A stretch of 34,302 bases of DNA, taken from NCBI GenBank assembly GCA_903867225.1, contig CAIPQN010000041.1, forward strand, positions 1 through 34,302, in the 5' to 3' direction. This document shows, in pieces, positions 1 to 14,782 of this stretch. Source of the stretch: an uncultured Pseudomonadota bacterium (lineage in GTDB: Bacteria; Pseudomonadota; Gammaproteobacteria; Methylococcales; Methylomonadaceae). A program made the position numbers and the translations under genes. Under the pieces are notes generated by a model that saw nothing but the letters and a program-made list of their open reading frames with translations, made no database searches and was not told the DNA's origin. Each line of letters opens with the position of its first letter. Position 1 is the stretch's first letter.

Positions 1-2
1 GT

Positions 3-806
3 GGCAAACAAACTCGCGCGGTAATTGAAGGTTTGCAAGCCGATGTGGTAACACTTGCATTGTCTTACGACATCGACCAAATCCACGAAAAAGCGAATTT
101 ATTACCCAAAGATTGGCAAACAAAATTACCGAATAACAGCACGCCTTACACTTCAACGATTGTGTTTTTGGTTCGTAAAGGCAATCCGAAAGCGATTAAA
201 AATTGGGACGATTTGGTTAAAGATGGCATTTCCGTTGTCACACCGAATCCAAAAACATCAGGCGGCGCACGTTACAACTATTTAGCGGCATGGCGATTTG
301 CTGAAAAGAAAACAGGTAACGAAACGGGTGCAAAAGATTTTGTGACCAAATTACTTAAAAATGTTCCCGTTTTAGATTCAGGCGCACGCGGTTCGACAAC
401 GACATTTGTTGAACGTGAAATTGGTGACGTGTTAATTACTTGGGAAAACGAGGCGCATTTAGTTTTAAAAGAATTTGGTGCAGACAAATACGAAGTAGTT
501 ACGCCGCCATTTAGTATTTTGGCTGAAACACCTGTTGCCGTTGTTGAAAAAGTCGCCAAGAAAAATGGCACAACCGATTTAGCCACCGATTATTTGAATT
601 ATCTTTACACCAAAGAAGCCCAAGATATTATTGCGAAAAATTATTATCGTCCGATTGATAAAGACGTAGCAGCGAAATATGCCAAACAATTTCCAACATT
701 AGAACTCGTAACGGTTAAAGATTTAGGTGGCTGGGCAGCTGTTCAGGCGAAACATTTCAATGACGATGGCATTTTTGATCAAATCGTTACGGCAAATAAC
801 AAATAA
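3..806 (+). CDS. sbp: Sulfate/thiosulfate-binding periplasmic protein Sbp (3' part)
   Basis: This is the C-terminal part of the substrate-binding protein of the sulfate ABC transporter; the 5' end lies outside the window. The frame is open from base 3 and reads [10 protein letters not shown] then [13 protein letters not shown], which matches the conserved sulfate-binding region of Sbp. Further hallmarks are [59 protein letters not shown] and the C-terminal NYYRP. In the family the mature protein binds sulfate in the periplasm and delivers it to the CysT/CysW permease and CysA ATPase. Those partners lie more than 12 kb downstream (13064-15826) instead of next door, so the usual sbp-cysTWA unit is split here. 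The apparent TTG start at 33 is not real, because homologous sequence continues upstream of it. A hairpin terminator follows at 851. Confidence 0.97.
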
Positions 807-892: not shown

Positions 893-919
893 ATCCCATT
901 TTTCCTTATCTGATTTGAG

Positions 920-972
920 CATAGATCTATCTAAAAATACCGTTTCATTTCCTCAAAGAACTTCTTTAGCAT
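920..972 (+). promoter_or_regulatory. Sulfur-locus promoter module, copy A (PAS-GGDEF-EAL gene)
   Basis: The half-sites CATA and TATC are separated by 4 bp (920-931). After 11 bp comes a -35-like TTTCAT (943-948), then 18 bp and a -10-like TAGCAT (967-972), 32 bp before the ATG at 1004. The same elements with identical spacing occur at four other promoters in the window. A palindrome just upstream of a poor -35 box is the usual position for a LysR-type activator. I infer CysB (15829-16728) as the binder; this is untested. Confidence 0.7.
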
Positions 973-1003
973 GAGGCTATAGCAAGCAATCAAAGGAACA
1001 ATC

Positions 1004-2752
1004 ATGCTAAATACTTATGCACAACCTCACCTTTTTACGCATTTAGAAAATAAAATTTCGCGGCTGGAACATTTGCTTTCCTCCGCCCCGTTGACGATTT
1101 ACACCCGCAGTCCATTCAATCCATTTTCAATTACATTTGTATCGAACAGCGTCAAAGAGCTACTTGGATACTTCGATGATGATTTTTTGGATTCGGCTAA
1201 TTTGTGGATTGAAAATGTGCATCCCGAAGACATTGAACAGGTTCTTGCTAATTTGCATCGCGTTTTATTGGGCGAACCGATTATTCATAAATACCGTTTT
1301 AAAACTAAAAGCGGCGAATGGAAATGGATACGCGACCGCGCTAAATTGATTACAGATAAAACGACGGGCAAACCGCTTGAAATTATTGGTGGCTGGACAG
1401 ATATGTCGGAGCTGATTCATGCTGAAAACGCGCTTATTAAATCACAAGAAAAAATTCACCATCTCGCGCATTACGATTCACTGACGCATTTGCCGAATCG
1501 TGTGCTAATTACGGAACGGATTGAGCAAGCGATTCTTTTTTCAGATCGTGAAAACTGGAATTTCGCGTTGTTATTTTTAGATTTGGATGATTTCAAAGTC
1601 GTCAATGATTCTCTCGGTCATCACTACGGCGACGAATTATTGCGTCAAGTGGCAGCGCGTTTAGAAAATAGCTTGCGTGAAGTTGATACGGCGGGTCGTT
1701 TAGGCGGTGACGAATTTGTGGTGATTTTGAGCAATACCACCGCACATGGCGCAGAAAATGTCGCTCGAAAAATTATTAGCAGCTTCAAAGAACCGTTCAA
1801 CGTCGAAGGCAAAGTGTTGTCGGTTCAAACTAGCATTGGCATCAGCATTTATCCTGAAAACGGGCGCGACAGTAATATGCTCACACGCCACGCCGATATT
1901 GCGATGTATCAAGCAAAAAGTGCGGGACGCGGACAATACTGCTTTTTTAATTTCAAAATGAACACGCATCTCGAATACCGCTTGGCGATGGAACGTGATT
2001 TACGCGAAGCCATTCATGAAAAACAATTTTTACTGTATTACCAACCACAAATTGATTTGGTGACGCGAAAATTGATTGGCGTAGAAGCTTTGATTCGTTG
2101 GCAACATCCACAACGAGGCATGATTTCGCCTGTCGATTTTATTCCGATTGCTGAAGATGCGGGCTTGATTAACCCGATAGGCGAATGGGTTTTACAACAA
2201 GCCTGCGATGACATTAAAACGTGGGAAAGAGCAGGATTTTCAGGTTTCAAAGTTGCGGTAAATCTATCCTTACGTCAATTACAAGCGGGTAAACTGTTTG
2301 AGAAAGTCAGCGCGATTCTGCAACAAACTGGCGTTGATGGCAGTCGGTTGGAATTAGAATTAACCGAAAGTGTAATGATGGAAAATCATGCTGAAACATT
2401 GGATTTCATGACGCAATGTAAAGATTTAGGGATTCATTTTTCGATTGATGATTTCGGCACGGGTTATTCGTCGTTGAGTTATTTAACGAAATTGCCTTTG
2501 CTCGACATCTTAAAAATTGACCGTTCCTTTGTTCAGGAAATTTCAAAACACAGCGACGCAAATACGATAGTCAGCGCAATTGTGAATATGGCAAAAAGTC
2601 TGCGTTTGAATGTGATTGCAGAAGGTGTGGAAACGCTTGAACAACTGGATTATCTAACAGAATGTGGTTGCGATACGGTGCAAGGTTTTCATTTTAGCCG
2701 CCCTTTGAATTACGAAACGTTGACAGCGTTTTTACAAAAAGAACAAACGTAG
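1004..2752 (+). CDS. PAS-GGDEF-EAL bifunctional c-di-GMP cyclase/phosphodiesterase
   Basis: The 582-residue protein has three domains: a PAS/PAC sensor (about 24-137), a GGDEF domain (about 150-315) and an EAL domain (about 330-578). The GGDEF signature at 234-238 is intact, and REVD at 225-228 sits five residues before it, which is the position of the RxxD inhibitory site. The EAL motif (361-363, in GVEALIRW), DDFGTG (482-487) and AEGVET are also intact. By family knowledge it should be able to make and degrade c-di-GMP, with the PAS domain sensing an unknown cue. No membrane segment or signal peptide is visible, so it is probably cytosolic. Its promoter carries the module shared with cysT, epsC and the rhodanese, which suggests it is expressed with sulfur genes. 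The FadL-type gene starts 47 bp downstream and may be co-transcribed. Confidence 0.93.
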   Translation: MLNTYAQPHLFTHLENKISRLEHLLSSAPLTIYTRSPFNPFSITFVSNSVKELLGYFDDDFLDSANLWIENVHPEDIEQVLANLHRVLLGEPIIHKYRFKTKSGEWKWIRDRAKLITDKTTGKPLEIIGGWTDMSELIHAENALIKSQEKIHHLAHYDSLTHLPNRVLITERIEQAILFSDRENWNFALLFLDLDDFKVVNDSLGHHYGDELLRQVAARLENSLREVDTAGRLGGDEFVVILSNTTAHGAENVARKIISSFKEPFNVEGKVLSVQTSIGISIYPENGRDSNMLTRHADIAMYQAKSAGRGQYCFFNFKMNTHLEYRLAMERDLREAIHEKQFLLYYQPQIDLVTRKLIGVEALIRWQHPQRGMISPVDFIPIAEDAGLINPIGEWVLQQACDDIKTWERAGFSGFKVAVNLSLRQLQAGKLFEKVSAILQQTGVDGSRLELELTESVMMENHAETLDFMTQCKDLGIHFSIDDFGTGYSSLSYLTKLPLLDILKIDRSFVQEISKHSDANTIVSAIVNMAKSLRLNVIAEGVETLEQLDYLTECGCDTVQGFHFSRPLNYETLTAFLQKEQT

Positions 2753-2799
2753 AATTTGGCGGTTATAGTTCAAAATTTTAAAACAACAGAGGAAACATA

Positions 2800-4083
2800 A
2801 TGAAATCCCCCTTACTCAAAACATTTACCGTTTTTATGCTCTTATCGCCTATGGTTGCCCAAGCAACTAACGGTTATTTTGCACATGGTTACGGCGTTCG
2901 GAATAAATCAATGGGCGGCGTAGGTGCGGCATTATCACAAGATGCCATCACGGCAGCGGTCAATCCCGCAGGCATGGCATTTGTTGATAATCGGCTCGAT
3001 GTCGAATTAGAAATGTTTAGTCCGCATCGTGAATACACGGTGAGTGGCACGCCCACGTTAGCATCTGGTGCATTTCCATTAGAAAACGGGACACGCGAAA
3101 GTGGTGACGATTATTTTGTTGTGCCAACCATCGGCTGGAATCATCGTTTAGACGAATCGCAAACCGTTGGATTGACGGTTTATGGCAATGGCGGCATGAA
3201 TACGACTTACCGTAATTTTGAAAACCCACTTTGCCAAGGTGGCGGAAGCGGCACGTTTTGCGCGGGTAAAACAGGCATTGATTTAATGCAGGCATTTATT
3301 GCTCCCAGCTACGCAAAAAGTTTTTTTAATCAGAAATTTTCACTCGGCATCGCGCCGATTTTCGCGCTGCAATCGTTCAAAGCGAAAGGCTTAAATTCAT
3401 TTGGTGGCTTTTCAACCGACGCGGGAAATTTATCCAACACGGGACGCGATTATTCTTATGGTGCGGGCGTTCGTGTGGGCGCACAAGCTGAAGTTTTACC
3501 ACGGGTGAAATTAGGTTTTTCATACAAAAGTCGCATTTTTATGTCGCCCTTTAACTATTACAAAGGATTGTTTGCCGAGCAAGGCGATTTTGATATTCCA
3601 GAGAGTTTTAACGGCGGCATCGCGTGGCAAGTCAACGACGATTTAACCGCCGCGTTTGACGTAGAACACATCAATTACAGTTCCGTGGCATCTGTTGGTA
3701 ACTCATTATTGCCGAATTTACAAACTGCCAAATTGGGCAGCAATGGCGGCGCGGGATTTGGCTGGCAGGATATGACGATTTACAAATTCGGTGTGCAATG
3801 GAAGCAAAATCAAGATTGGACGTGGCGCGGTGGATTTAGCTATGGGCAGCAACCCATTCCAAGTTCTGAAACGTTGTTTAACGTTCTCGCACCAGGGGTT
3901 CAACAATGGCATCTCACAGCGGGTTTAAGTCATGAATTAACGAAACACGATGAGTTGAGTGTGGGTTTGATGTTCTCGCCTAGCGAAACCATTTCAGGTA
4001 CCAATCCATTAAGTCCATCTCAGTCAATTGCCGTAGAAATGTATCAGGTTTCAGTTCAAGCAGGCTGGTCGCATCGTTTTTAA
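2800..4083 (+). CDS. FadL/OmpP1/TodX-family outer-membrane transporter
   Basis: This 427-residue protein has a signal peptide (MKSPLLKTFTVFMLLSPMVAQA) followed by NGYFAHGYG and NPAGMAFVDNR, which are typical of the start of mature FadL-family barrels. It ends in an aromatic residue (QAGWSHRF), as expected for BAM-dependent insertion. The family imports hydrophobic substrates (long-chain fatty acids, aromatics) across the outer membrane; the substrate here cannot be read from sequence. A ribosome-binding site (agaggaaacata) precedes the ATG. It follows the PAS-GGDEF-EAL gene by 47 bp on the same strand, so co-transcription is likely. Given the sulfur context, uptake of a hydrophobic organosulfur compound is conceivable, but that is inference only. 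Confidence 0.9.
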   Translation: MKSPLLKTFTVFMLLSPMVAQATNGYFAHGYGVRNKSMGGVGAALSQDAITAAVNPAGMAFVDNRLDVELEMFSPHREYTVSGTPTLASGAFPLENGTRESGDDYFVVPTIGWNHRLDESQTVGLTVYGNGGMNTTYRNFENPLCQGGGSGTFCAGKTGIDLMQAFIAPSYAKSFFNQKFSLGIAPIFALQSFKAKGLNSFGGFSTDAGNLSNTGRDYSYGAGVRVGAQAEVLPRVKLGFSYKSRIFMSPFNYYKGLFAEQGDFDIPESFNGGIAWQVNDDLTAAFDVEHINYSSVASVGNSLLPNLQTAKLGSNGGAGFGWQDMTIYKFGVQWKQNQDWTWRGGFSYGQQPIPSSETLFNVLAPGVQQWHLTAGLSHELTKHDELSVGLMFSPSETISGTNPLSPSQSIAVEMYQVSVQAGWSHRF

Positions 4084-4098
4084 TTAGTTGAATATTTT

Positions 4099-4137
4099 AA
4101 CCGCTTCCCATTTTTTTAAAACAGGAAACGGTTCTTT
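4099..4137. terminator. Bidirectional terminator between convergent fadL-type and rhodanese genes
   Basis: AACCGCTTCC pairs with GGAAACGGTT (one mismatch) around an AT-rich loop, with T or A runs on both sides. It lies between two convergent stop codons (4083 on plus, 4153 on minus), so it probably serves both transcripts. Confidence 0.75.
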
Positions 4138-4152
4138 TGTGGCATGTGGAAA

Positions 4153-4935
4153 TTATTTTTTAACCGTGTACAACGCGGGATTGAATAATTTTGAATTCAC
4201 TAGTTTTGTTTCAATTGGTAGACCTTGAAAATAAGCCCAACCATCTTTGTCATTGACATCAAAAACACCGTCGTGATTTAAATCAAGTTGCACGAATTTA
4301 TAAGGCAAACTGGTATCGCCTGTCCCGCTAACTGTTGGAACTGCGTTGGTGTAAGCATATTTTGGTTGCCCTTCATAACCTTCCCAAATGTTTTTAACTT
4401 GCGTGTAATCGCCGTATTTTACCAGTGCATTGGCGGCTTGTACGCTACGATGCCCCGTTTTGCACAAAAGGTAAATTGGTTGATTTTTATCTTTGACAAA
4501 ACGCTTAACGTGATTAACAAATTCATCAATTGGCAATGTGCCATCTTTACCATCAGCAGCTAAAAATCCAACTTCAGCATCAACAGAAACATCGTAACCA
4601 ATGTAGCCGTTTGTCGAGTCATTTGCTTTTGTTGGACTTCCTGTAACGTGAGGAAATGGAATGCTAAGTGCGCCAATTGGATGCCCCGTAATATATTCTT
4701 CAACACGACGAACATCGATAATTACAGGTTTTTTACCATTCTCATCTTTATTTTTGCTTAGGTTAATCCATGCTCTAGCTGCACTGATTTCTGATAAATA
4801 AAGTGTTGGATTACCGTAGCGATTACCTGTTGTCGCAATGACTGATGTATTCACTACATTAGCGGCAAAAGATGGCAGTGTAGCCGCTATAAATCCCAAT
4901 CCGATAACAGATTTTGCAATTTTAAGTGTTTTCAT
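4153..4935 (-). CDS. Exported rhodanese-like sulfurtransferase with EF-hand-like loop
   Basis: The 260-residue protein has a clear signal peptide (hydrophobic stretch ending LPSFA, about residue 24), so it acts in the periplasm or outside. A single rhodanese domain spans about 45-195: VIIDVRRVEEYITGHPIGAL is the conserved first half and CKTGHRS (158-164) is the active-site loop, with Cys158 the persulfide-carrying residue. Near the C terminus, DLNHDGVFDVND (218-229) fits an EF-hand or dockerin-type calcium loop, which is not a standard part of the domain. Rhodaneses move sulfane sulfur between carriers; the substrate here is unknown. Rhodanese genes are recurrent neighbours of Family 2A encapsulins, but this one is exported and cannot contact the cytosolic shell directly. 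Its minus-strand promoter carries the sulfur module (4995-5047). Confidence 0.92.
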   Translation of the reverse strand: MKTLKIAKSVIGLGFIAATLPSFAANVVNTSVIATTGNRYGNPTLYLSEISAARAWINLSKNKDENGKKPVIIDVRRVEEYITGHPIGALSIPFPHVTGSPTKANDSTNGYIGYDVSVDAEVGFLAADGKDGTLPIDEFVNHVKRFVKDKNQPIYLLCKTGHRSVQAANALVKYGDYTQVKNIWEGYEGQPKYAYTNAVPTVSGTGDTSLPYKFVQLDLNHDGVFDVNDKDGWAYFQGLPIETKLVNSKLFNPALYTVKK

Positions 4936-4994
4936 AATCTAAAAGCCTCTTGTGAATTTAAGTATTTTCACAGTATTTCTACTGCACGAAAAAA

Positions 4995-5047
4995 AGATTA
5001 AAAGAATTTTTAGAATTTTGGAAATGGTAAAAATAGATATAAATATC
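4995..5047 (-). promoter_or_regulatory. Sulfur-locus promoter module, minus-strand copy (rhodanese)
   Basis: Read on the minus strand, GATA-N4-TATC (5047-5036) is followed by 11 bp, TTTCCA (5024-5019), 18 bp, and TAATCT (5000-4995), 60 bp before the rhodanese ATG. The spacing is identical to the four plus-strand copies, and the 11-bp spacer keeps the TACC found in copies A, B and C. The -35 and -10 are weaker than in the other copies, so I am less sure of it. Confidence 0.6.
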
Positions 5048-5099
5048 AAAGGATTAAATATCGTTTTTTTAGATAGTGCTATCTAAAAATACCGTTTCA
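5036..5099 (+). repeat. 64-bp promoter-region repeat, copy 1
   Basis: This segment matches 6107-6170 at 59 of 64 positions with no gaps, counted by eye. It begins with the palindrome GATATAAATATC and ends at the -35-like element of the module. Copy 1 lies between the divergent rhodanese and EAL-like genes; copy 2 lies upstream of epsC. Confidence 0.9.
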
Positions 5100-5124
5100 T
5101 TTTGTGGAAGAATTTCTTTAGGAT
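5072..5124 (+). promoter_or_regulatory. Sulfur-locus promoter module, copy B (degenerate EAL gene)
   Basis: GATA-GTGC-TATC (5072-5083) lies within the 14-bp perfect dyad AGATAG-TG-CTATCT. It is followed by 11 bp, TTTCAT (5095-5100), 18 bp, and TAGGAT (5119-5124), 56 bp before the ATG at 5180. The palindrome centre is 36 bp from that of the divergent rhodanese module, so both promoters could share bound regulator. Confidence 0.75.
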
Positions 5125-5179
5125 AATACCTACTACGATTTAACAAAATTACTAACACAAAGAAATTAAGGAACTCATC

Positions 5180-6016
5180 ATGGCTTTAGTCGATTTAGTT
5201 GAATACTTCAACGACCGATTTGAACGGGAGCATCAGGCGCATTACCGTCCTTTATCCTTAGAAAATAATCGGGTGACAGGCGTTTTTGGACAATTAAACA
5301 TCAGCAGTGTTTTTTCACCATTAAGACAAACTGAAAACATCAGAAATATCTCTGGACACGCAGTGAAAATTAAAGTGTGTGCGAATGAATCGCCTTATTT
5401 ACACAGCTACGAAATGGACAATTTAACGTTGAATTCAAACGAAACCGCTATTCATTTTGAATCGGTGATTAACTTTGACCGTTTAGCACGAACGGTTCAC
5501 ATGTTGAATTATTTGCCTTTAGCGCAATCTAACAAAGTGCTGTTTTTAGAAGTCGATCCACGTCACATTTTAGGCATAAAAAAAGACCACGGAGCATATT
5601 TTGAAACTGTCATTGAGCAATGCGGGTTAATCACTCAAAACACAGTGATTGTTTTAGCGATTACTAACAACTATGTGAAATATAACGATGCGTTAATTCG
5701 AGGTTTGAGCAATTATCGTCAACGTGGTTATCAAATTGCCTTGCGTTTTGATCATTTGATTTCAGACAAACACGCTGCTGAACTCATTTTTAAATTAACA
5801 CCTGACTTCGTTAGCCTGTCAGTACGACAGATTGAAACAGTAAATGGCACAAATTCGTTAACAAAATTGCATTCACTAAAACGAATTATTTCAACAAACT
5901 CTGGCAAAGGGATTTTGAGACAAATTGACGGTAAGAACTCGGAAATTTTAGCGCGTGAAAGCGGATTTGAATTTGCACAAGGTAGTTATTATGAAAACTT
6001 AATAAGTAATTCATAG
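5180..6016 (+). CDS. Degenerate EAL-domain protein (probably non-catalytic)
   Basis: The 278-residue protein follows the layout of an EAL domain but lacks its catalytic signatures. GHAVKIKV (59-66) sits where the EAL motif should be, LFLEVDPRHI (121-130) replaces the family's metal-binding Asn motif, RFDHL stands in place of DDFGTG, and VSLSVRQI in place of the IKID motif. I therefore infer that it does not hydrolyse c-di-GMP. In the family, such proteins (for example YdiV) act by binding c-di-GMP or a protein partner. No signal peptide or membrane segment is visible. It is transcribed from its own sulfur-type promoter (copy B) and ends at a terminator, so it appears monocistronic. The alternative, an unrelated TIM-barrel-like protein, is less likely because the segment order matches EAL. 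Confidence 0.7.
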   Translation: MALVDLVEYFNDRFEREHQAHYRPLSLENNRVTGVFGQLNISSVFSPLRQTENIRNISGHAVKIKVCANESPYLHSYEMDNLTLNSNETAIHFESVINFDRLARTVHMLNYLPLAQSNKVLFLEVDPRHILGIKKDHGAYFETVIEQCGLITQNTVIVLAITNNYVKYNDALIRGLSNYRQRGYQIALRFDHLISDKHAAELIFKLTPDFVSLSVRQIETVNGTNSLTKLHSLKRIISTNSGKGILRQIDGKNSEILARESGFEFAQGSYYENLISNS

Positions 6017-6045
6017 CCTGTTGTCGTTTCTTTTTTTAAACATTA

Positions 6046-6083
6046 AAACCGCATCCTATTTTAAATAGTAATGCGGTTTTTTT
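6046..6083 (+). terminator. Rho-independent terminator of the EAL-like gene
   Basis: A 10-bp perfect stem, AAAACCGCAT pairing with ATGCGGTTTT, encloses an AT-rich loop and runs into seven T. It lies 30 bp after the stop at 6016. Confidence 0.9.
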
Positions 6084-6106
6084 ATGCAACCCAAATCTCA
6101 AAAAAA

Positions 6107-6170
6107 GATATAAATATCAAATAATTAAATATCATTTTTTTAGATGGTGCTATCTAATAATACCGTTTCA
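6107..6170 (+). repeat. 64-bp promoter-region repeat, copy 2
   Basis: This is the second copy of 5036-5099, with five substitutions. It retains the upstream palindrome GATATAAATATC although no minus-strand gene starts here, which suggests the whole rhodanese/EAL intergenic control region was duplicated to drive epsC. Confidence 0.9.
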
Positions 6171-6195
6171 CACAGGGTTTTATTTTAATTAAGAT
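6143..6195 (+). promoter_or_regulatory. Sulfur-locus promoter module, copy C (epsC)
   Basis: GATG-GTGC-TATC (6143-6154) is followed by 11 bp, TTTCAC (6166-6171), 18 bp, and TAAGAT (6190-6195), 34 bp before the epsC ATG. No terminator is seen before 10382, so this promoter could drive the whole run epsC - zinc-ribbon gene - encapsulin - cysteine desulfurase. Confidence 0.72.
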
Positions 6196-6228
6196 GCTTT
6201 ACGACATAACAAAAAATGGATTAAGAAA

Positions 6229-7134
6229 ATGAACAGTAAAGCAAATTGGGGAATTGGAACTCTCGTTAAACAATTGCGTGACATTCGAGTGCAATCGCTT
6301 GAAACACGCGAAAGACTTAACAAACCACCAAAATTACCTTCTCGAAAAACACTTGCCAGTATTTTAGAAAATTTCAGCGGTGCATTGTTCCCAAATCGTT
6401 TAGGTCGTCCAGATTTACACGATGAAGGTATTGATTATTTTGTTGGCTATACCTTAGATACTGCATTACGCGATTTGCATGAGCAAATTAGTCGTGAATT
6501 ACATTTCATGGCGGAACAAAACAGCGTGCCTCAAATTACTGAATATGATGCTAAAACGATTGTTCGTAAATTTGCTGCACAATTACCGCGCATTCGTAAA
6601 TTGCTAGATACCGATATTCAAGCCGCTTATCAAGGCGACCCTGCTGCCAGAACCCCCGATGAAACGCTCGTTTGTTATCCAGGGATTTACGCCATGATTC
6701 ATCAAAGAATCGCTCATGTTTTATATCAACTTGGTGTGCCTTTAACCGCTCGAATGATTACTGAATTGGCGCATTCTGCAACGGGAATTGATATTCACCC
6801 AGGCGCAAAAATCGGAGAAAGTTTTTTTATCGACCACGGCACAGGCGTTGTGATTGGTGAAACCACCGTTATTGGCAATCGGGTTCGTTTATATCAAGCC
6901 GTAACGCTTGGTGCAAAACGCTTTGAACAAGCTGCTGATGGCAGTTTAGTTAAAGGAAATGCACGACATCCGAACGTTGAAGATGATGTCGTGATTTATG
7001 CGGGTGCAACAATTTTGGGGCGAATCACTATCGGACGAGGTTCAGTCATTGGTGGAAATGTTTGGTTAACGCATGACGTGCCGCCAGAAAGTAACATTAC
7101 GCAAGCGTTGCTACGCAGTGAATTAACTGCATAA
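6229..7134 (+). CDS. epsC: Serine O-acetyltransferase, EpsC type
   Basis: This 301-residue enzyme transfers acetyl from acetyl-CoA to L-serine, giving O-acetylserine, the acceptor for sulfide in cysteine synthesis. An alpha-helical N-terminal region (about 1-180) precedes the left-handed beta-helix of hexapeptide repeats (about 186-290). DIHPGAKIG (188-196) and FIDHGTGVVIGE (200-211) carry the conserved histidines of the family, His190 and His203. RLYQAVTLGAKRF continues the CoA-binding part. The length and long helical front half fit the EpsC group rather than short CysE. Serine acetyltransferase genes are known recurrent neighbours of Family 2A encapsulins, where the desulfurase consumes cysteine. 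O-acetylserine and its isomer N-acetylserine are also the known inducers of CysB, so this enzyme may feed the regulator at 15829. Confidence 0.95.
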   Translation: MNSKANWGIGTLVKQLRDIRVQSLETRERLNKPPKLPSRKTLASILENFSGALFPNRLGRPDLHDEGIDYFVGYTLDTALRDLHEQISRELHFMAEQNSVPQITEYDAKTIVRKFAAQLPRIRKLLDTDIQAAYQGDPAARTPDETLVCYPGIYAMIHQRIAHVLYQLGVPLTARMITELAHSATGIDIHPGAKIGESFFIDHGTGVVIGETTVIGNRVRLYQAVTLGAKRFEQAADGSLVKGNARHPNVEDDVVIYAGATILGRITIGRGSVIGGNVWLTHDVPPESNITQALLRSELTA

Positions 7135-7164
7135 ACATAACGAATTGATTTAATTGGAAATTCA

Positions 7165-7596
7165 ATGGTCACTAAACATAGGTTGCAATCCGAAGTCATT
7201 CGTTGTCCAAAATGTCAATCTTCAGCGTTCACAAAAGATGGAATTATTAAAGAAAAACAACGATTTAAATGTAAAGAATGCGAGCATCGCTACACCGTAT
7301 TTCAACGAGGATTAAGTAAACAAATTAGAAGACAAGCTCTGCAATTGTATTTGGCAGGGTTGGGGTTTCGTTCAATTGGAAGACTACTTAAATGTAGTCA
7401 TGTCACAGTCGCACAATGGATTAACGAACATGGTGACACCATCAAATCTATCCGTGCTTCATCTGAAATAAACGTTATCAAAACAAATGATTTACACGCT
7501 TACATTGAAAATAACCATAAAGTTGTATTGGTGTTTGACATACAAAATGACAGTGCATCGCTGTGCATCCCTATTACCCCTAAAGAACAAAGATAA
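7165..7596 (+). CDS. Zinc-ribbon + HTH protein, IS1-type transposase stub
   Basis: The 143-residue protein has an N-terminal zinc ribbon with CPKC (14-17) and CKEC (36-39), then a helix-turn-helix (about 53-90, RSIGRLLKCSHVTVAQWINEHG) as in InsA-like proteins of IS1-type elements. The C-terminal part (about 100-135, NDLHAYIENNHKVVLVFDI) resembles the opening strand of the DDE domain, where related transposases have an acidic DELHTYI-like motif. Here that motif reads KTNDLHAYI, and the protein ends before the rest of the catalytic core. No flanking inverted repeats or target duplication were seen. It sits between epsC (31 bp) and the encapsulin gene (154 bp) on the same strand. It may be a broken transposase or a domesticated DNA-binding regulator; I cannot decide between them. 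Confidence 0.75.
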   Translation: MVTKHRLQSEVIRCPKCQSSAFTKDGIIKEKQRFKCKECEHRYTVFQRGLSKQIRRQALQLYLAGLGFRSIGRLLKCSHVTVAQWINEHGDTIKSIRASSEINVIKTNDLHAYIENNHKVVLVFDIQNDSASLCIPITPKEQR

Positions 7597-7638
7597 TGTT
7601 CACTTTTTTAAACCTATATAAATTTACCACCAGTAGTT

Positions 7639-7688
7639 AATAGATTGATTTTAAAAGACTATAAGTTGACGTTTTCTTAAAATCTATT
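7639..7688 (+). promoter_or_regulatory. Inverted repeat in the encapsulin leader
   Basis: AATAG plus ATTTTAA (7639-7643 and 7648-7654, with a 4-base bulge) pair with TTAAAATCTATT (7677-7688), giving 12 AT-rich pairs around a 22-base loop. It lies 63 bp upstream of the encapsulin ATG. No T-run follows, so it is not a terminator. It may be an operator or an mRNA leader structure. I found no convincing -35/-10 pair here and no copy of the sulfur module. Confidence 0.35.
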
Positions 7689-7750
7689 GAAAACTATAAA
7701 GGTAAAAAAGCAGTATTTTTCAAATCTAACTATTCAAAAGGAAACAAAAA

Positions 7751-8674
7751 ATGTCAGATATTCATGATGCACACACAGCGTTAGGCGATGTTGCCGCGCG
7801 TACACTTTCAAATGCAACAAAAACCGTCCCAATGCTTTCAACCATCACACCACGTTGGTTGACTCACTTGTTGCAATGGGTGCCTGTTGAAGCGGGTATT
7901 TACCGTGTCAACAAGGTTAAAAACGAAGCAAATTTAGCGGTTGATTGTTCAAGTTTAGATGAAAAAATCTTGCCACAAACATTTGTTGATTATGAAGAAT
8001 GGGGTCGTGAATACCGTTTAAATGCAGTGAATACAGTTTTAGACGTTCACACGCGCGTTGCGGATTTGTATAGCAGCCCTCATAACCAAACCAACGAACA
8101 ATTACGTTTAACCATCGAAACAATTAAAGAGCGTCAAGAAAGCGAATTGATTAACAACGCTGAATACGGCTTGTTAAACAACGTTGCGCCAAATTTCAGA
8201 ATTCAACCACGCAATCCATTAGGCTCACCAACACCTGACGATTTAGACGAATTGATTGCCAAAGTTTGGAAAGAGCCTGCATTTTTTTTAGCGCACCCAC
8301 AAGCGATTGCAGCGTTTGGTCGTGAAGCAACTCGTCGTGGAACACCTCCGCCAACTGTTAGCTTATTCGGTTCACAATTCATCACATGGCGCGGCATTCC
8401 GTTAATTCCTTGCGATAAAGTTCGCGTCGTGAACGGTAAAACTAGCATCTTGTTATTACGCACAGGCGAAAGCCGTCAAGGTGTTGTTGGTTTATACCAA
8501 CCGAATTTAACAGGCGAATTAAGTATGGGCTTGTCGGTACGTTTCATGGGCATTAACCATAAAGCTATCGCGTCTTATTTAGTATCGCTTTACTGTTCAC
8601 TCGCCGTATTGACTGAAGACGCGCTCGGCGTGTTAGAAAACGTCAACGTAGGCAACTATTATGACTATAAATAA
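7751..8674 (+). CDS. Family 2A encapsulin shell protein (SrpI-like)
   Basis: The 307-residue protein closely follows the SrpI-type shell protein: LSNATKTVPMLSTITPRWL near the N terminus, VPVEAGIYRVNKVKN, NTVLDVHTRVADLYS, then IKERQESELINNAEYGLLNNVAP, DDLDELIAKVWKEPAFFLAHPQAIAAFGRE, GSQFITWRGIPLIP and SLYCSLAVLTEDALGVL. Family 2A encapsulins have the HK97 phage-capsid fold and assemble into a cytosolic protein compartment. They package a cysteine desulfurase, and published work links them to sulfur storage. The length is typical, and I see no inserted cyclic-nucleotide-binding domain, which marks Family 2B. An aggaaac ribosome-binding site precedes the ATG. The stop overlaps the start of the cargo gene by 14 bp, consistent with translational coupling. 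Confidence 0.97.
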   Translation: MSDIHDAHTALGDVAARTLSNATKTVPMLSTITPRWLTHLLQWVPVEAGIYRVNKVKNEANLAVDCSSLDEKILPQTFVDYEEWGREYRLNAVNTVLDVHTRVADLYSSPHNQTNEQLRLTIETIKERQESELINNAEYGLLNNVAPNFRIQPRNPLGSPTPDDLDELIAKVWKEPAFFLAHPQAIAAFGREATRRGTPPPTVSLFGSQFITWRGIPLIPCDKVRVVNGKTSILLLRTGESRQGVVGLYQPNLTGELSMGLSVRFMGINHKAIASYLVSLYCSLAVLTEDALGVLENVNVGNYYDYK

Positions 8675-10382
8675 TCTTACGCCTGAGTATTCAACCGATA
8701 TTGCGGCGATGGAAAAGCAATTGACGCAATTGGCAAATCAGATTTTTTCTGAATTGCCAACGTGTGATGGTTCGCGTTTAGGACTTGCGACGAATGCCGC
8801 GTCGCAAGCGGAAATTTCTGCGGATTTGCCGAAAGCGTTGCAACAATTTGCAACGCCAAATGTTAGCAGTTTCACGCCACCGCAACATTTTGATATTCCA
8901 GCCGATGCAGATATTCAAAAATTAGCAGGAGCGCAAAGCGTTTCAGGTTTTACACCAAATAGTTTGTCATCAGCGCGTGCGCCGATTCCGAGTGAATTTA
9001 ATTTGCCACAAGAAGCGCAAATTCAAAAATTGATTACGCCACGCAATTTACCGTTGGACATTTCAAATTTGAGTTCGCAAGGTTCACCGTTTTATTTTTT
9101 GAATGACGTGAAAACCTTTGAGCAACCGCAATCGCTTTACACGCCACAAACGCATCACAGCGCGTTTGATATTCATGCGGTACGTCGAGATTTTCCGATT
9201 TTGAATGAGCGAGTGAATGGGCATCAATTGGTTTGGTTTGATAACGCGGCAACGACACAAAAACCACAGGTTGTGATTGATAGAATTTCGTATTTTTACG
9301 AACACGAAAACTCCAACATTCACCGCGCGGCACACGAATTGGCTGCACGTTCAACTGATGCTTATGAAAAAGCGCGTCAAACAGTGGCGAAATTTATCAA
9401 TGCGCCGTCGCCTGACAACATCATTTTTGTGCGTGGCACAACCGAAGCGATTAACTTAATTGCCAAAAGTTGGGGCATTCAAAACATTGGCAAAGATGAT
9501 GAGATTGTTATCACTTGGCTAGAGCATCACGCCAACATTGTACCTTGGCAACAATTGTGTGAAGTAACTGGCGCAGTTTTACGGGTCGCACCTGTTGATG
9601 ATAATGGTCAGGTTTTGCTTGATGAATACCAAAAATTGCTCAATGCAAAAACAAAACTCGTGTCATTTACCCAAGTTTCAAATGCGCTCGGTACAATTAC
9701 GCCAGCGCATGAAATGATTGATTTAGCGCATCGTGTTGGCGCGAAAGTGTTACTCGATGGCGCACAATCGGTCTCTCATATTTCTGCGGATGTACAAAGT
9801 TTGGATTGTGATTGGCTGGTTTTTTCAGGTCATAAAATTTTTGCACCAACAGGTATTGGCGTGGTTTATGGCAAAGCTGATTTGCTTGAAGCCACACAAC
9901 CTTGGCAAGGTGGTGGCAATATGATTGAAGATGTCACGTTTGAACACACGCGCTATCAACCAGCACCTGCAAAATTTGAAGCAGGAACGGGAAACATTGC
10001 TGACGCAGTGGGTTTAGGCGCAGCGTTGGAATATGTTCAAAAAATTGGCATTCAAAACATTGCCGTTTATGAACACGATTTGCTGGCGTATGCCATGGAA
10101 GCCTTGCGCCGTATTGATGGTTTAACCTTAATTGGCACAGCAAAAGAAAAAACCAGCGTGTTGTCGTTTGTGTTGAAAGGTCATACCACAACTGAAATTG
10201 GTGAAGCCTTAAATAAAGTTGGTATTGCGGTTCGCAGTGGACATCATTGCGCCCAACCGATTTTGCGTCGTTTTGGTTTGGAAGCAACGGTTCGTCCTTC
10301 GCTTGCATTTTATAACACGCACGATGAAGTTGACCATTTAGTAAGTACGGTTCGTAAAATCAAAAGCGGTTCTTCATTTTAA
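8661..10382 (+). CDS. Encapsulin cargo cysteine desulfurase (SufS-like) with N-terminal docking region
   Basis: The 573-residue protein has a low-complexity N-terminal extension (about 1-168) followed by a full SufS/CsdA-type, PLP-dependent cysteine desulfurase (about 169-573). The catalytic domain shows FDNAATTQKP, HHANIVPW, LLDGAQSVSH, SGHKIF with the PLP lysine Lys392, and SGHHCAQP with Cys530, the persulfide-forming cysteine. It converts L-cysteine to L-alanine, leaving sulfur on the enzyme. The extension is what targets such enzymes to the inside of Family 2A shells. It contains two similar blocks, FDIPADADIQKL (77-88) and FNLPQEAQIQKL (113-124), plus FTPP and FTPN, likely shell-binding motifs. 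The ATG lies inside the encapsulin gene (14-bp overlap), so shell and cargo are probably made together. Confidence 0.96.
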   Translation: MTINNLTPEYSTDIAAMEKQLTQLANQIFSELPTCDGSRLGLATNAASQAEISADLPKALQQFATPNVSSFTPPQHFDIPADADIQKLAGAQSVSGFTPNSLSSARAPIPSEFNLPQEAQIQKLITPRNLPLDISNLSSQGSPFYFLNDVKTFEQPQSLYTPQTHHSAFDIHAVRRDFPILNERVNGHQLVWFDNAATTQKPQVVIDRISYFYEHENSNIHRAAHELAARSTDAYEKARQTVAKFINAPSPDNIIFVRGTTEAINLIAKSWGIQNIGKDDEIVITWLEHHANIVPWQQLCEVTGAVLRVAPVDDNGQVLLDEYQKLLNAKTKLVSFTQVSNALGTITPAHEMIDLAHRVGAKVLLDGAQSVSHISADVQSLDCDWLVFSGHKIFAPTGIGVVYGKADLLEATQPWQGGGNMIEDVTFEHTRYQPAPAKFEAGTGNIADAVGLGAALEYVQKIGIQNIAVYEHDLLAYAMEALRRIDGLTLIGTAKEKTSVLSFVLKGHTTTEIGEALNKVGIAVRSGHHCAQPILRRFGLEATVRPSLAFYNTHDEVDHLVSTVRKIKSGSSF

Positions 10383-10400
10383 AAATAACTGTGAAAAAAC

Positions 10401-10437
10401 AAACGAGGTGCAGATTTAAAATCTGTTACCTCGTTTT
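10401..10437. terminator. Terminator after cysteine desulfurase
   Basis: AACGAGGT pairs with ACCTCGTT, with an inner CAGATT/AATCTG stem, and six T follow on the plus strand. It lies between convergent genes (stops at 10382 on plus and 10444 on minus) and may also end the minus-strand transcript. Confidence 0.88.
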
Positions 10438-10443
10438 TTGCAT

Positions 10444-10725
10444 TTATCTCGATTCATCGAGTTCATTCAACCGATGTTGCATCTCAAGCTCAAAGCGAGT
10501 TTGATTTGATTCGTCGATGATGTCATCAATTTCACGCTGATTTTTTTCACGACGGTCTTCGTAATCGTGCAGATATTCACGCGAACGTTGCTCGCGTCGT
10601 TCCCAATCTGCTTTGCGTTCAATGTCGTTAACTTTTCGTTCCAATTCCAGCTGTTTGAGCCTATCTGAAAAATCGGCGAAGGCGGGAGTGGAAAACAAAA
10701 ATATGAGACAAATTAAAAATTTCAT
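10444..10725 (-). CDS. Small exported charged protein
   Basis: This is a 93-residue protein starting at the ATG at 10725; the TTG six bases further upstream is an unlikely start. It has a short signal peptide (MKFLICLIFLFSTPAFA) followed by a highly charged helical segment rich in Glu, Arg, Lys and Asp (KQLELERKVNDIERK, then YEDRREKNQREIDDI), likely a coiled coil in the periplasm. There is no cysteine in the mature part and no recognised domain. The ATG lies just after the stop of the glycosylase-like gene (10728), so the two are probably co-transcribed. I do not know its function. Confidence 0.7.
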   Translation of the reverse strand: MKFLICLIFLFSTPAFADFSDRLKQLELERKVNDIERKADWERREQRSREYLHDYEDRREKNQREIDDIIDESNQTRFELEMQHRLNELDESR

Positions 10726-10727
10726 GG

Positions 10728-11504
10728 TCAAAAACTTTGTAATTTTTTAAGCAACAACGCTTTATTTGCATCCATCTTTTTCGTATCAACTTTATCAGAT
10801 GGATTTTGTTTTTGTCCCAGAAAATAAGCAACCCTTTCAGCATTTGCACCAGAAGGGTGAGGTATTTCACCGATAACACGCTTTGCGTCCATTTTTCCAC
10901 TATTAACTAACCAATTCAAAGCACTTGCAACATTGGAACCTAATGCTAAAAACATTGCATTTGGCATCTTTTCAACATCTTCTAAAAAGTAATTTTCAAT
11001 TTGTTTTTGAAGCAATGAATTTTTTGTCATTGATGGCGTGCTACCGCTGTAATCTTTGTAATCGCCTGTTTTAGTGTCTTTGATTTGGACAGGCATTTTC
11101 AATATAGACGTAAAATGAGCGTGTCTAATTTGTGTTGAAAACAATTCAGAACAAGAAGAAAGCCCCAACTTTTTATTCATTTCAATTGCATCAAGCATTT
11201 CAACAAGTTTTGGTCGCATCGTACCGCTGAAACTTGCATTAGATTTGACTAATCGGAGAATTTCCTCCGTTGACATGGTTGCATCGTGATTTAACAACTC
11301 ATGTGCTTTATTAAGAGCGTTTAAAGCCTGTTGTTTTCCTGGCGTAATCCCTACAATTACTAACTTCGCATCTTTGTTTCTGTATTCAAGTGGCGCGTAA
11401 TAAACTCTGATTTTTCCATCGTCTTCTAACAAGAGCCGTTGTGAGAGTTGTGCAAAATTGGAATTTTTGATTTCGTTTTTGTAACGATCGAATAAAACAG
11501 ACAT
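10728..11504 (-). CDS. Uracil-DNA-glycosylase-fold protein
   Basis: The 258-residue protein shows the two signature segments of the uracil-DNA glycosylase superfamily: LVIVGITPGKQQ (48-59), matching the GxxPG loop near the start of the fold, and IPHPSGANAER (214-224), matching the HPS loop near the end. Between them, MFLALGSNVASAL resembles the central strand and helix of the family. Members excise damaged or modified bases, but divergent ones have other roles, including antiphage defence. The usual catalytic Asp or Asn after the GxxPG loop is not evident, so activity on uracil is uncertain. It is on the minus strand, directly upstream of the small exported protein and 295 bp downstream of the double-HTH regulator. 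The organisation suggests an accessory module rather than core repair. Confidence 0.72.
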   Translation of the reverse strand: MSVLFDRYKNEIKNSNFAQLSQRLLLEDDGKIRVYYAPLEYRNKDAKLVIVGITPGKQQALNALNKAHELLNHDATMSTEEILRLVKSNASFSGTMRPKLVEMLDAIEMNKKLGLSSCSELFSTQIRHAHFTSILKMPVQIKDTKTGDYKDYSGSTPSMTKNSLLQKQIENYFLEDVEKMPNAMFLALGSNVASALNWLVNSGKMDAKRVIGEIPHPSGANAERVAYFLGQKQNPSDKVDTKKMDANKALLLKKLQSF

Positions 11505-11535
11505 CTTTGTTACCTCTTATGTGAAATTAAATTTA

Positions 11536-11556
11536 GTCGCGCCACAAAAGCGCGAC
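11536..11556. other. Strong hairpin upstream of the glycosylase-like gene
   Basis: The 7-bp GC-rich arms GTCGCGC and GCGCGAC enclose a 7-base loop, 31 bp upstream of the minus-strand start at 11504. There is no T-run on either side, so it is more likely a leader or regulatory RNA structure than a terminator. Confidence 0.5.
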
Positions 11557-11604
11557 AATCAAGTTAAAAATTACGTCATTCAACAAACCAGCACCATTAC
11601 TAGA

Positions 11605-11748
11605 ATGTCAAAATTGGCGGTAGATTCACGACTGACTATTTTTGCTATTTTCATAGCGGGGGTGAGCTGTCTCATCGGTCTACTGCAAGCTGTTTTGTAT
11701 GAACACCCTACCTGCTTGCTGAGAGTGTCTAAACTACAAGGCTTTTAA
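11605..11748 (+). CDS. Possible 47-aa membrane peptide (type I toxin-like candidate)
   Basis: This short plus-strand ORF would encode 47 residues: a charged front (MSKLAVDSR), one hydrophobic segment (LTIFAIFIAGVSCLIGLLQAVL) and a polar tail. Its stop lies inside the perfect palindrome GGCTTTTAAAAGCC (11739-11752), which is followed by a CCC...GGG hairpin. It sits alone against two minus-strand genes in an otherwise empty 295-bp gap. A single hydrophobic span, small size and stable 3' hairpins recall type I toxin mRNAs, but I recognise no family and no good ribosome-binding site. The same stretch could instead encode a minus-strand structured RNA. Low confidence. Confidence 0.25.
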   Translation: MSKLAVDSRLTIFAIFIAGVSCLIGLLQAVLYEHPTCLLRVSKLQGF

Positions 11749-11799
11749 AAGCCAACCCCGTTTAGCAGGGCAAAATAAAGCAAAAACGTTTTTAAAAAG

Positions 11800-12804
11800 T
11801 TAATCTGATAAATTTTGTTCGGTGGCAGTTCTTTTTTGCTGCCAGTTAAAAACTTCAAGTTCTGATCCCATATTCAATTTTGATTTGAAAAATGCCAATT
11901 GAAATTTATCTGTACTTGCACCTAATAAATTGGCAAGTTCTTCTAAATGAAAAATTCTCATGTAATCTTTGAAAAAAACAGTCGTGTCTTCTTCTAAAAT
12001 GTCAGCTAATTTTTTGACTTGGTTGATATTGATTCGGTCAATGCCTTTTTCTAAATCAACAATTATTTCTAAATCAACATTAACCGCTTCTGCAACAGAT
12101 TCATGCGTTAATTCCAATTCATTTCTTTTGAATGCAACGAAATTTCCAAAGCCTAATTCGTCAGTAAAATATCGCGGAGAATTGATAATTTTGTTTTCGA
12201 TATATTGCGTTTGTTTAAAATCTGGGCGGCGACTTAACCAACGAATTGCTTCGGAATTTTTGATTATCGTAGATGCACCAGATTTTTCGATAGTTAAACT
12301 GTTTTCGTCTTTTGAACTGGAAGAGTTTCTGATGGTTCTTTCGTCAACGCTTGCTAGCAGTGCAATTTCTTTGATAGTTAAATCTTCTCCGAAATCTAAA
12401 TTTTGACGAGCTTTGCTTAAATCGTGAATTAGTCCATATTTAGAATCCAATCTTTTCATTGAATCTTCAAACAAATCATAAAATTGCTCCATTCCGTCAA
12501 GAAACCATCCATTATCAGATTCCCTTGCCCCACAACCTGGATCAAGTAATACCTGACCATCTTTCGTATAGTGATATGCGTAATAAGCATCCGTAGCGGG
12601 CATTGAATTTTTAATATCTTCAGGGGTAAATTTTCTGTAGGTCTCTACAGGCTCGCCATTTAGCGAAATTAGAGAATCATCTTTAATTGCCAAACAAAAG
12701 TCATCTCCAAAACTTTCGTAAATGTCGTTGTTCAGCATATTTGCGAAAGACTCAATTTCTTCAACAAGTTCTTCATAAGTAAAATCTACTTTTTTGAGTG
12801 CCAT
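11800..12804 (-). CDS. Regulator with two helix-turn-helix segments (XRE type)
   Basis: The 334-residue protein has an acidic N-terminal region of unknown fold (1-135), a first HTH-like segment (about 140-190, LTIKEIALLASVDERTIRN then SEAIRWLSRRP) resembling a MerR or excisionase-type winged helix, and a C-terminal XRE-type HTH (about 221-275, LELTHESVAEAVNVDLEIIVDLEKG). It is transcribed on the minus strand from a promoter with a perfect TTGACA, overlapped by inverted TGATAATTTT sites, so autoregulation is likely. It lies upstream of the glycosylase-like gene in the same direction. The start is supported by aggaaaa upstream of the ATG. The ligand or target is unknown; it may be the control gene of the accessory module. 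Confidence 0.75.
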   Translation of the reverse strand: MALKKVDFTYEELVEEIESFANMLNNDIYESFGDDFCLAIKDDSLISLNGEPVETYRKFTPEDIKNSMPATDAYYAYHYTKDGQVLLDPGCGARESDNGWFLDGMEQFYDLFEDSMKRLDSKYGLIHDLSKARQNLDFGEDLTIKEIALLASVDERTIRNSSSSKDENSLTIEKSGASTIIKNSEAIRWLSRRPDFKQTQYIENKIINSPRYFTDELGFGNFVAFKRNELELTHESVAEAVNVDLEIIVDLEKGIDRININQVKKLADILEEDTTVFFKDYMRIFHLEELANLLGASTDKFQLAFFKSKLNMGSELEVFNWQQKRTATEQNLSD

Positions 12805-12839
12805 GATATTTTTCCTGTGAAATTCGATAACGTGGCGAT

Positions 12840-12868
12840 AGTTTATTATGATAATTTTCCTTTGTCAA
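12840..12868 (-). promoter_or_regulatory. Sigma-70 promoter of the double-HTH regulator
   Basis: On the minus strand, TTGACA (12868-12863) is followed by a 17-bp spacer and TAAACT (12845-12840), 36 bp before the start codon. The -35 is perfect and the -10 matches at 4 of 6 positions. Confidence 0.65.
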
Positions 12869-12903
12869 ATATCATGTGATAATTTTTTATGGAAAATTAT
12901 CAT
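12848..12903. promoter_or_regulatory. Inverted-repeat operator array over the regulator promoter
   Basis: TGATAATTTT (12877-12886) and AAAATTATCA (12893-12902) form a perfect 10-bp inverted repeat around six bases. A further copy, ATGATAATTTTCC (12848-12860), lies within the -10/-35 spacer and mirrors GGAAAATTATCAT (12891-12903). The sites flank and overlap the promoter, as expected for an autorepressor. Confidence 0.6.
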
Positions 12904-12920
12904 TTTTGAAATTTAGGCAC

Positions 12921-12951
12921 AAAAAAAGCCCGCTTTGAAACGAGCTTTTTT
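12921..12951. terminator. Terminator-like hairpin upstream of cysT
   Basis: AAAAAAGC-C-CG pairs with CG-A-GCTTTTTT (one mismatch) around CTTTGAAA, with A and T runs on both sides. No plus-strand gene ends nearby, so it looks orphaned, possibly left when the accessory block was inserted. Confidence 0.55.
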
Positions 12952-12973
12952 AATTTTTCAAATCGAATTTTTA

Positions 12974-13026
12974 GATACTACTATCGAAATTCATCGTTTC
13001 ATTTCTATGTAAATTTTCTTTATTAT
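12974..13026 (+). promoter_or_regulatory. Sulfur-locus promoter module, copy D (cysT operon)
   Basis: GATA-CTAC-TATC (12974-12985) is followed by 11 bp, TTTCAT (12997-13002), 18 bp, and TATTAT (13021-13026), 38 bp before the cysT ATG. This copy precedes the sulfate transporter operon, classically CysB-regulated in gammaproteobacteria, and so anchors the sulfur interpretation of the other four copies. Confidence 0.78.
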
Positions 13027-13891: not shown

Positions 13892-13900
13892 GAATTATTT

Positions 13901-14764: not shown

Positions 14765-14782
14765 ATAAACGAGTAAAAAAAT

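Follow-up and report, generated by a model that had tools for sequence, protein, structure and literature searches.

The contig CAIPQN010000041.1, from an uncultured member of the Methylomonadaceae, raises the question of which regulator reads a promoter layout that it carries five times, before genes as different as a sulfate transporter, a serine acetyltransferase and two EAL-type proteins. We analyzed this stretch over its whole length of 34,302 nucleotides (the window; contig C41 of a 2.64-Mb assembly of 110 contigs that is 94.9% complete), starting from a reading of the sequence alone which had proposed a sulfur regulon motif, the palindrome GATA-N4-TATC followed at fixed distances by a TTTC-type -35 and a TA-type -10 element. 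Our answer from sequence comparison is that the five sites are very probably CysB-dependent promoters of a sulfur-starvation regulon, each with two adjacent LysR-type boxes. What we observed are the sites and how well they are conserved, the genes that they precede, and the way in which they co-occur with cysB and pair with it divergently.

All five sites were reread at the coordinates claimed for them (Table 1), with spacings of 11 and 18 bp that are exact in each and with the reported half-site variants, CATA in site A and GATG in site C. The gaps to the start codons, given as 32-60 bp, were measured as 31 (A), 55 (B), 33 (C), 37 (D) and 59 bp (minus site) and agree within one base. The strict pattern [CG]AT[AG]-N4-TATC-N11-TTTC-N20-TA-N3-T matched the window five times, exactly at the five sites, and never in 200 dinucleotide shuffles. 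GATA-N4-TATC alone, with at most one mismatch, was found 20 times against a mean of 7.0 by chance; since this is only about 3-fold, it is the whole layout that is significant. The spacing of 18 bp depends on how the hexamers are assigned, because the -35 can also be read one base later (in site C as TTCACA-17-TAAGAT). Among other patterns, the exact CTATC-N5-WWNCCGTTTCA was too strict, matching only three of the window copies, and a looser pattern with 3 mismatches gave 34 matches against 10 for a backward control, several of the matches with 2-3 mismatches being intragenic; we therefore relied only on intergenic matches with 0-2 mismatches. The shared architecture thus holds for all five copies, but they do not count as five independent events: 58 of 63 bases are identical between 5036-5098 and 6107-6169, upstream of B and C, while the next 42 bases agree at 16 positions only, so that the likeness ends at the -35. 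The second palindrome of this B/C stretch is probably a relic of the divergent B region. The minus site is the weakest copy, as detailed below.

The sequence-only reading had placed the palindrome where a LysR activator would contact RNA polymerase. A LysR-type site is supported, but the palindrome itself is probably not the box. A further fixed element, missed before, is an ATC exactly 12 bp upstream of the GAT in sites A, B, C and D, replaced by ATT in the minus site. This gives the form T-N11-A in A-D (as the dyad ATC-N9-CAT in A) and ATT-N9-GAT in the minus site. Among 13 cysT promoters from relatives, which had been selected and aligned by their palindrome, ATC was kept in 12 (TTC in the other) and the positions T2, C3, G13 and A14 were invariant; ATC also recurred in 66 of the 67 new sites of full length, which were detected by a model that itself includes ATC. 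The LysR box is therefore probably ATC-N9-GAT, which fits T-N11-A and overlaps the left half of the palindrome, and the palindrome as the whole site was rejected as the best reading because the ATC is about as fixed. With the start inferred 7 bp behind the -10, the box centres fall at -64 (ATC-N9-GAT) and -43 (ATC-N9-C(G/A)T), 21 bp or two helical turns apart. A T-N11-A site near -65 is described as the primary LysR site, with a second contact reaching the -35 box (PMC4834489). The sites have a poor -35 element, a usual trait of promoters that depend on an activator. Conservation of the inner palindrome equals or exceeds that of the outer ATC, and LysR boxes do not usually show its even symmetry, two features that would suit a different, non-LysR dimeric regulator binding the palindrome with CysB or instead of it; yet such a reader has no need of the ATC, which is nevertheless kept to the extent just given.

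We then examined how far the layout extends beyond the window. In the cysT promoters of 14 close relatives, the loci L004-L017, GAT(A/G)-N4-TATC and the spacings were kept in 14 of 14, with variation in the central four bases. From 13 of these promoters, leaving out the window and the near-identical locus L005, we built a profile, R1. Searched against the window, R1 recovered D (expect value, E, 9e-18), B (1.5e-9), A (1.3e-6, 23.8 bits) and C (5.5e-4), all in the stated register. The minus site was not found in its stated register by R1 in the window; the sole minus-strand match nearby (5090-5023, E 0.0033) starts in the B palindrome, carries a 10-base insertion and departs from the stated layout. 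Genome-wide, R1 scored D at 6.9e-16, B at 3.1e-6 and A at 2.1e-4, with additional matches at a TauE/SafE gene (contig C67, E 0.0014), at an SfnR-like activator gene (C88, E 0.0022) and on C58 (E 0.17). Another strong match (E 5.8e-5) lies at a contig end, C46:6340-6377, before a cut reading frame which, by eye, we take to resemble the start of a transposase. The SfnR-like gene behind the C88 site is split into two reading frames of 107 and 222 aa that nevertheless align as one 342-residue stretch with the activator of the window; it may be a broken copy or an assembly error.

A second profile, R2, was trained on 43 sites, 8 of them from this genome, and its scores at those 8 hold by construction because they were in training; this applies to site A (37.5 bits). 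Set apart from opposite-strand palindrome shadows and matches below 14 bits, R2 gave ten matches in the genome with E<0.002, of which all but those on C88 and C46 had been in training. Sulfur genes stand behind all of these except the GGDEF-EAL gene, the degenerate EAL gene and one contig-end match. Looser layout and profile scans outside the window similarly found sites before sbp, TauE/SafE, an SfnR-like sigma-54 activator and a porin-sbp unit. The scan of the genome for sulfur genes that the sequence-only reading had called for thus supports it, and the scan of relatives does likewise.

Among 40 more distant cysT loci (L018-L057), 22 had an R1 match at E<=1, before cysT, sbp, porin or EAL genes. 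In the 4.8-Mb genome of Methylobacter tundripaludum SV96, six R2 matches with E<1e-4 all lie within about 110 kb; behind them we found a degenerate EAL gene, a FadL-type gene (with cysM diverging), a porin upstream of the sbp-cysT locus, alanine dehydrogenase, an SfnR-like gene (84%) and a gene, by eye receptor-like, that diverges from the EAL gene. In a family survey of 61 genomes, including the own one, 39 genomes in 20 of 29 genera had at least one match at E<=0.001. In a survey of the class, only three of 185 genomes were matched: the own genome, G075 of another family, and G116, whose match lies inside a reading frame and was taken as noise. The match in G075 stands before cysH (by Pfam), and a second one (E 0.006) before cysDN (by eye); there, a pattern match adjoins a CysB-like gene of 49% identity. 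This spread bears on whether the layout is simply a local duplication of one promoter, without a shared regulator. The bases shared by B and C, together with the multicopy sbp and porin pieces of the genome, would fit such an origin, but A and D lie outside the B/C duplication, the cysT promoters keep the layout with varying central bases, and the targets across these genera include several unrelated genes. Conservation largely refutes a mere duplication, which we hold to be extremely improbable.

We counted what stands behind the family sites with E<=1e-4, leaving the own genome aside; 91 of these 92 sites were covered, from 36 genomes. The omitted site, G235:C37:410, is by its coordinates the training site L037:410, before a porin. 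A reference gene up to about 800 bp behind the site was found in 70 of the 91 cases, chiefly genes for sulfate uptake and cysteine together with those that regularly adjoin them, a count that describes the sites and is no blind enrichment, because the reference set was picked partly from genes seen behind them. The 70 comprise degenerate EAL (23), alginate-export porin (17), OprO-type porin (6), cysT (6), sbp (5), SfnR-like (4), cysM (3), TauE (2), FadL-type (2), GGDEF-EAL (1) and serine acetyltransferase (1) genes. Three further sites have a reference gene as a later gene, EAL in one and cysM in two, the first gene in the latter being serA-like (Pfam) or serC (by eye). When five sites identical to training sites were dropped, 65 of 86 preceded reference genes. 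The blind evidence is provided by R1 and the class survey. Two other gene types were seen behind the motif: fatty-acid-hydroxylase (sterol desaturase)-like genes in G221:C35, G227:C11 and G203:C59 (Pfam was run on the G227 protein only), and a small DUF2292 protein between motif and porin in several genomes, G245:C1:282284, G222:C2:273510 and G195:C1:3044067 among them (Pfam on the G245 one only).

Is the regulator CysB? The cysB gene announced for this locus was found directly behind cysTWA, and the best solved relatives of its product are CysB (E 9e-59); NCBIfam CysB models are also its best matches, yet below their cut-offs. M. tundripaludum SV96 has a CysB of 83% identity. Across the 61 family genomes, 36 have both sites and CysB, 3 sites only, 3 CysB only and 19 neither (Fisher 6e-10), a figure to be read with an orthologue line of >=60% identity that was set after seeing a bimodal table and with related genomes that are not independent; counted by genus, the numbers are 20, 0, 2 and 7 (p 2e-5). 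Nine sites in eight family genomes lie 16-50 bp from a divergent cysB (coordinates compared by eye), and the eight examined all serve the degenerate EAL gene. A regulator divergent from its target with the site in between is described as the commonest LysR arrangement (PMC4834489). The window cysB, placed in the cysTWA run, is not divergent to a site. In the three CysB-only genomes, laxer filters brought out weaker copies of the layout, either next to cysB or ahead of EAL, porin or sbp genes. The same search in six CysB-free genomes found no match at E<=0.5 in two and 11 together in the other four; three of these were inspected and none stands before a reference gene, although in G205 a desulfurase homologue of 28% identity lies on the opposite side. 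Target genes, co-occurrence and divergent pairing all support a sulfur regulon under CysB.

Several observations count against this assignment. R1 scored site C at just E 0.074 genome-wide and gave a match on C73 (E 0.015) that we do not explain and that is absent from the R2 list. The minus site has 3 mismatches to the looser pattern and an R2 E value of 0.0017 although it was in R2 training. The cysDNC and cysHIJ promoters are not among the own-genome matches. No R1 match at E<=1 was obtained for 18 of the 40 distant Methylococcales cysT loci, and 18 of the 91 family sites have no gene of the reference set nearby; behind the latter we saw, by eye or Pfam, contig ends, genes of the fatty-acid-hydroxylase family, and TatA-like and cupin-like genes among others. 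Sites without a CysB of >=60% occur in three family genomes: G190 has no CysB match, G221 only one of 37% with a stop, and G229 one of 38% and a 49% fragment with a stop. Under the laxer filters, the strongest match of the CysB-free genomes, a partial one in G193 (E 0.0035), roughly equals the best of the CysB-only genomes (0.0029), so that only context separates the two groups. Finally, another LysR gene could be missing from the own genome because of its incompleteness.

The three genomes with sites and no CysB orthologue are also what the non-LysR dimeric regulator raised above would predict, but the site co-occurs with cysB and pairs with it divergently, and taken with the retained ATC this makes such a protein an unlikely reader. 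Alternatively, the binder could be another LysR regulator, either the gene at C32:43432-43605 or the 35-40% CysB paralogue of relatives. Above the Pfam cut-off, the own genome has two LysR-type genes only, cysB and that on C32; two weaker matches presumably are ModE-like. G221, with its 37% paralogue, and G229, with the 38% protein and the broken 49% fragment, both have sites, as this alternative would have it. The C32 gene, however, is on another contig, and there was no R2 match at E<=3 on C32; also, the nine genomes with only a 35-40% paralogue (G187, G206, G218, G228, G232, G239, G241, G242 and G244) have no site at E<=0.001. Reading of the recognition helix gave the core QSAVSR for the window CysB, for 22 of 30 survey CysB loci (L278-L307, those readable by the pattern), for 22 of 56 loci L004-L059 and for the G075 CysB, which thus agrees with the family CysBs that were read; a paralogue in G075 has QSGVSK instead. 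We consider another LysR protein a very improbable binder, and CysB itself the very probable one. A second cysB-like stretch, C101:181-735, is 89% identical to residues 120-304 and has an internal stop codon; it may be a leftover copy, or the assembly may include a strain variant.

From these elements we infer a simple model of activation. A CysB tetramer would occupy two boxes at once, ATC-N9-GAT upstream, which is the strong one, and the weaker ATC-N9-C(G/A)T downstream, and would contact RNA polymerase at the poor -35 element; GATA-N4-TATC would then be the abutting inner halves of the two boxes. Under sulfur shortage, acetylserine-loaded CysB would activate sulfate uptake (sbp, cysTWA, porins) and serine acetyltransferase, and the same activation would cover the encapsulin and cysteine desulfurase, the rhodanese and the EAL proteins. 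N-acetylserine is described as the CysB inducer (PMC11329422). The acetyltransferase behind site C could provide the inducer precursor and thereby close a positive feedback loop.

The run behind site C consists of epsC, a small helix-turn-helix (HTH) protein, an SrpI-like shell and a class-V aminotransferase that would be the expected cysteine desulfurase cargo. It has the gene composition of a family 2A encapsulin operon, with an SrpI-type shell (PF19307) and a desulfurase-type gene with an N-terminal extension (PF00266 from residue 191). A terminator scan found none between the genes of the run and one after the last, which makes a single transcript from site C plausible, although the scan is weak and finds fewer terminators than its shuffles. 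Serine acetyltransferase and rhodanese are reported as the most enriched accessory genes of family 2A encapsulins (PMC8346489), and SrpI as induced by sulfur starvation in Synechococcus (PMC8049743).

The target of site B is the commonest target of all (23 of the 91 sites, in 21 of 36 genomes). The Pfam EAL model scores its product at 20 bits, below the cut-off of 31.3. Its predicted structure (mean predicted local distance difference test, pLDDT, 80.8, from 8 sequences) best matches the fold of EAL domains (YkuI, E 7.8e-11). The EAL, DDFGTG, KID and EGVE motifs are absent from the window protein and its aligned homologues, while a core of V-PR...HG-YF and DRL-R...LNYL is retained in the eight aligned sequences. 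As judged from motifs and model, the fold is kept in a catalytically dead protein. The gene is divergent to cysB in at least seven genomes. In L043 (3090-3968) and L019 (3040-3858) it stands directly before cysT, on the same strand. One tentative idea, which we would rather doubt than defend, is that the protein has become a dedicated CysB partner which gave up cleavage of cyclic di-GMP (c-di-GMP) and binds CysB, the sulfate transporter or the encapsulin, thereby tuning how strongly the cell responds to sulfur starvation. If true, a c-di-GMP-type fold would have been recruited into sulfur control in methanotrophs. The strangest part of the system is this consistent retention of a dead enzyme under a sulfur regulator.

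The genes of the locus are listed in Table 1 together with the sites. Pfam and NCBIfam confirmed four of the target gene types proposed before, GGDEF-EAL, epsC, cysT and a rhodanese domain, and the predicted fold supports the fifth, the degenerate EAL protein. Export of the rhodanese is the proposal of the sequence-only reading. The window CysT is 88-100% identical to those of the 14 nearest loci, mostly from lake metagenome-assembled genomes, and about 80% identical to that of Methylobacter, which makes the source a freshwater methanotroph of the Methylococcales. The FadL/TodX protein has a 67% identical homologue in M. tundripaludum that has its own site. NorR is the best NCBIfam match of the sigma-54 activator, below its cut-off, and the name SfnR is given by resemblance.

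Table 1. Promoter sites (putative elements, with their target genes) and annotated genes of the window.
Feature	Position	Strand	Elements or basis
Site A	908-972	+	LysR-type box 908-922 ATC-N9-CAT; palindrome 920-931; second box 929-943; -35-like 943-948; -10 TAGCAT 967-972; target PAS-GGDEF-EAL gene
Minus site	4995-5059	-	ATT-N9-GAT 5059-5045; palindrome 5047-5036; second box 5038-5024; -10 TAATCT 5000-4995; target rhodanese-domain gene
Site B	5060-5124	+	ATC-N9-GAT 5060-5074; palindrome 5072-5083; second box 5081-5095; -10 TAGGAT 5119-5124; target degenerate EAL gene
Site C	6131-6195	+	ATC-N9-GAT 6131-6145; palindrome 6143-6154; second box 6152-6166; -10 TAAGAT 6190-6195; target epsC
Site D	12962-13026	+	ATC-N9-GAT 12962-12976; palindrome 12974-12985; second box 12983-12997; -10 TATTAT 13021-13026; target cysT
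Extra palindrome	6107-6118	-	Second palindrome of the B/C shared stretch; without recognisable promoter behind
PAS-GGDEF-EAL protein, 582 aa	1004-2752	+	Pfam
FadL/TodX outer-membrane protein	2800-4083	+	Start 48 bp behind PAS-GGDEF-EAL gene
Rhodanese-domain protein	4153-4935	-	Pfam; target of minus site
Degenerate EAL-fold protein, 278 aa	5180-6016	+	Behind site B
Serine O-acetyltransferase, EpsC type	6229-7134	+	NCBIfam NF041874 above cut-off
Small zinc-ribbon/HTH protein	7165-7596	+	Pfam
Family 2A encapsulin shell protein (SrpI-like)	7751-8674	+	PF19307, E 1.4e-103
Class-V aminotransferase, long N-terminal extension	8661-10382	+	PF00266 at residues 191-560
cysT, cysW, cysA (sulfate ABC transporter)	13064-15826	+	NCBIfam
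cysB	15814-16728	+	Start overlaps cysA end; recognition helix with VQSAVSRQLQ
Alanine dehydrogenase	16759-17886	+	M. tundripaludum homologue 71% identical, with own site
Sigma-54 activator, NorR/SfnR kind	17822-18925	+	Homologues 81-84% identical on C88 and in M. tundripaludum, with own sites

At the left edge of the window (1-806) lies a cut solute-binding protein gene that apparently continues on contig C69, the end of which matches the initial 131 bases of C41 exactly; the shared promoter layout precedes the solute-binding gene there. The genome has several sbp genes: that on C69, behind a truncated porin remnant, one on C25 behind a full-length porin, and one on C88, a 71% homologue that adjoins the SfnR-like gene. 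On the minus strand, 24437-34138 encodes a protein of 3233 aa that carries, close to the C-terminus, a DUF3739 domain of the filamentous-haemagglutinin type; ExbB/lectin-like, ExbD, TonB-like and Porin_5 genes follow.

A CysB regulon is in itself of a known kind; what appears new from these comparisons is the sharp CysB site, the encapsulin-desulfurase run behind one of the sites and the dead EAL gene as the commonest target. In the literature at the level of titles and abstracts, with few subscription papers covered, we found nothing on a CysB motif in methanotrophs, on CysB with EAL proteins or on a CysB-controlled encapsulin, which is weak evidence of absence. The fixed-spacing site, with the matching difference in the recognition helix described below, would offer a clean substrate for studying how a CysB tetramer reads DNA, and CysB becomes a concrete candidate regulator for a family 2A encapsulin gene run. 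Among the members of a sulfur regulon in these freshwater methane consumers, a conserved dead EAL protein stands out as the most frequent; sulfate in freshwater is described as often limiting (PMC8049743).

Compared with known systems, the window run shares with family 2A (SrpI) encapsulins a shell and a desulfurase with serine acetyltransferase and rhodanese neighbours, but is headed by a CysB-type site, whereas the parts of PMC8346489 and PMC8049743 consulted do not name a regulator. The dead EAL protein shares its fold with YkuI and differs from other inactive EAL proteins by its own core and its linkage to cysB and cysTWA. As in the CysB-SfnR cascade of Pseudomonas putida, a hierarchy taken here from paper titles, a sigma-54 activator of the NorR/SfnR kind stands under a sulfur site. 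Enteric CysB (Escherichia coli, Salmonella, Klebsiella) is likewise a LysR-type regulator of sulfate-uptake and cysteine genes. Its activation sites are reported to be centred 50-60 bp upstream of the start and described as 19-bp half-sites with a very weak consensus (PMC11329422), and proteobacteria are said to lack a distinct CysB motif (PMC3773388), in contrast to the sharp site of the methanotrophs. The motif had not been recognised as the E. coli CysB site, and this agrees with our searches: R2 gave no match at E. coli cysP, cysK, cysJ and cysD, its best in the three regions searched being E 0.11 in the cas region, and the match nearest a sulfur gene (E 0.49) lying about 230 bp before tauA. 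The recognition helices differ, QPGISKQ in enteric CysB chains and QSAVSRQ in the window protein, in keeping with the lack of R2 matches at these E. coli promoters. The CysB structure is said to agree better with two pairs of shorter half-sites than with half-sites of 19 bp (PMC11329422), a proposal that the methanotroph sites, with their two putative adjacent boxes, would fit.

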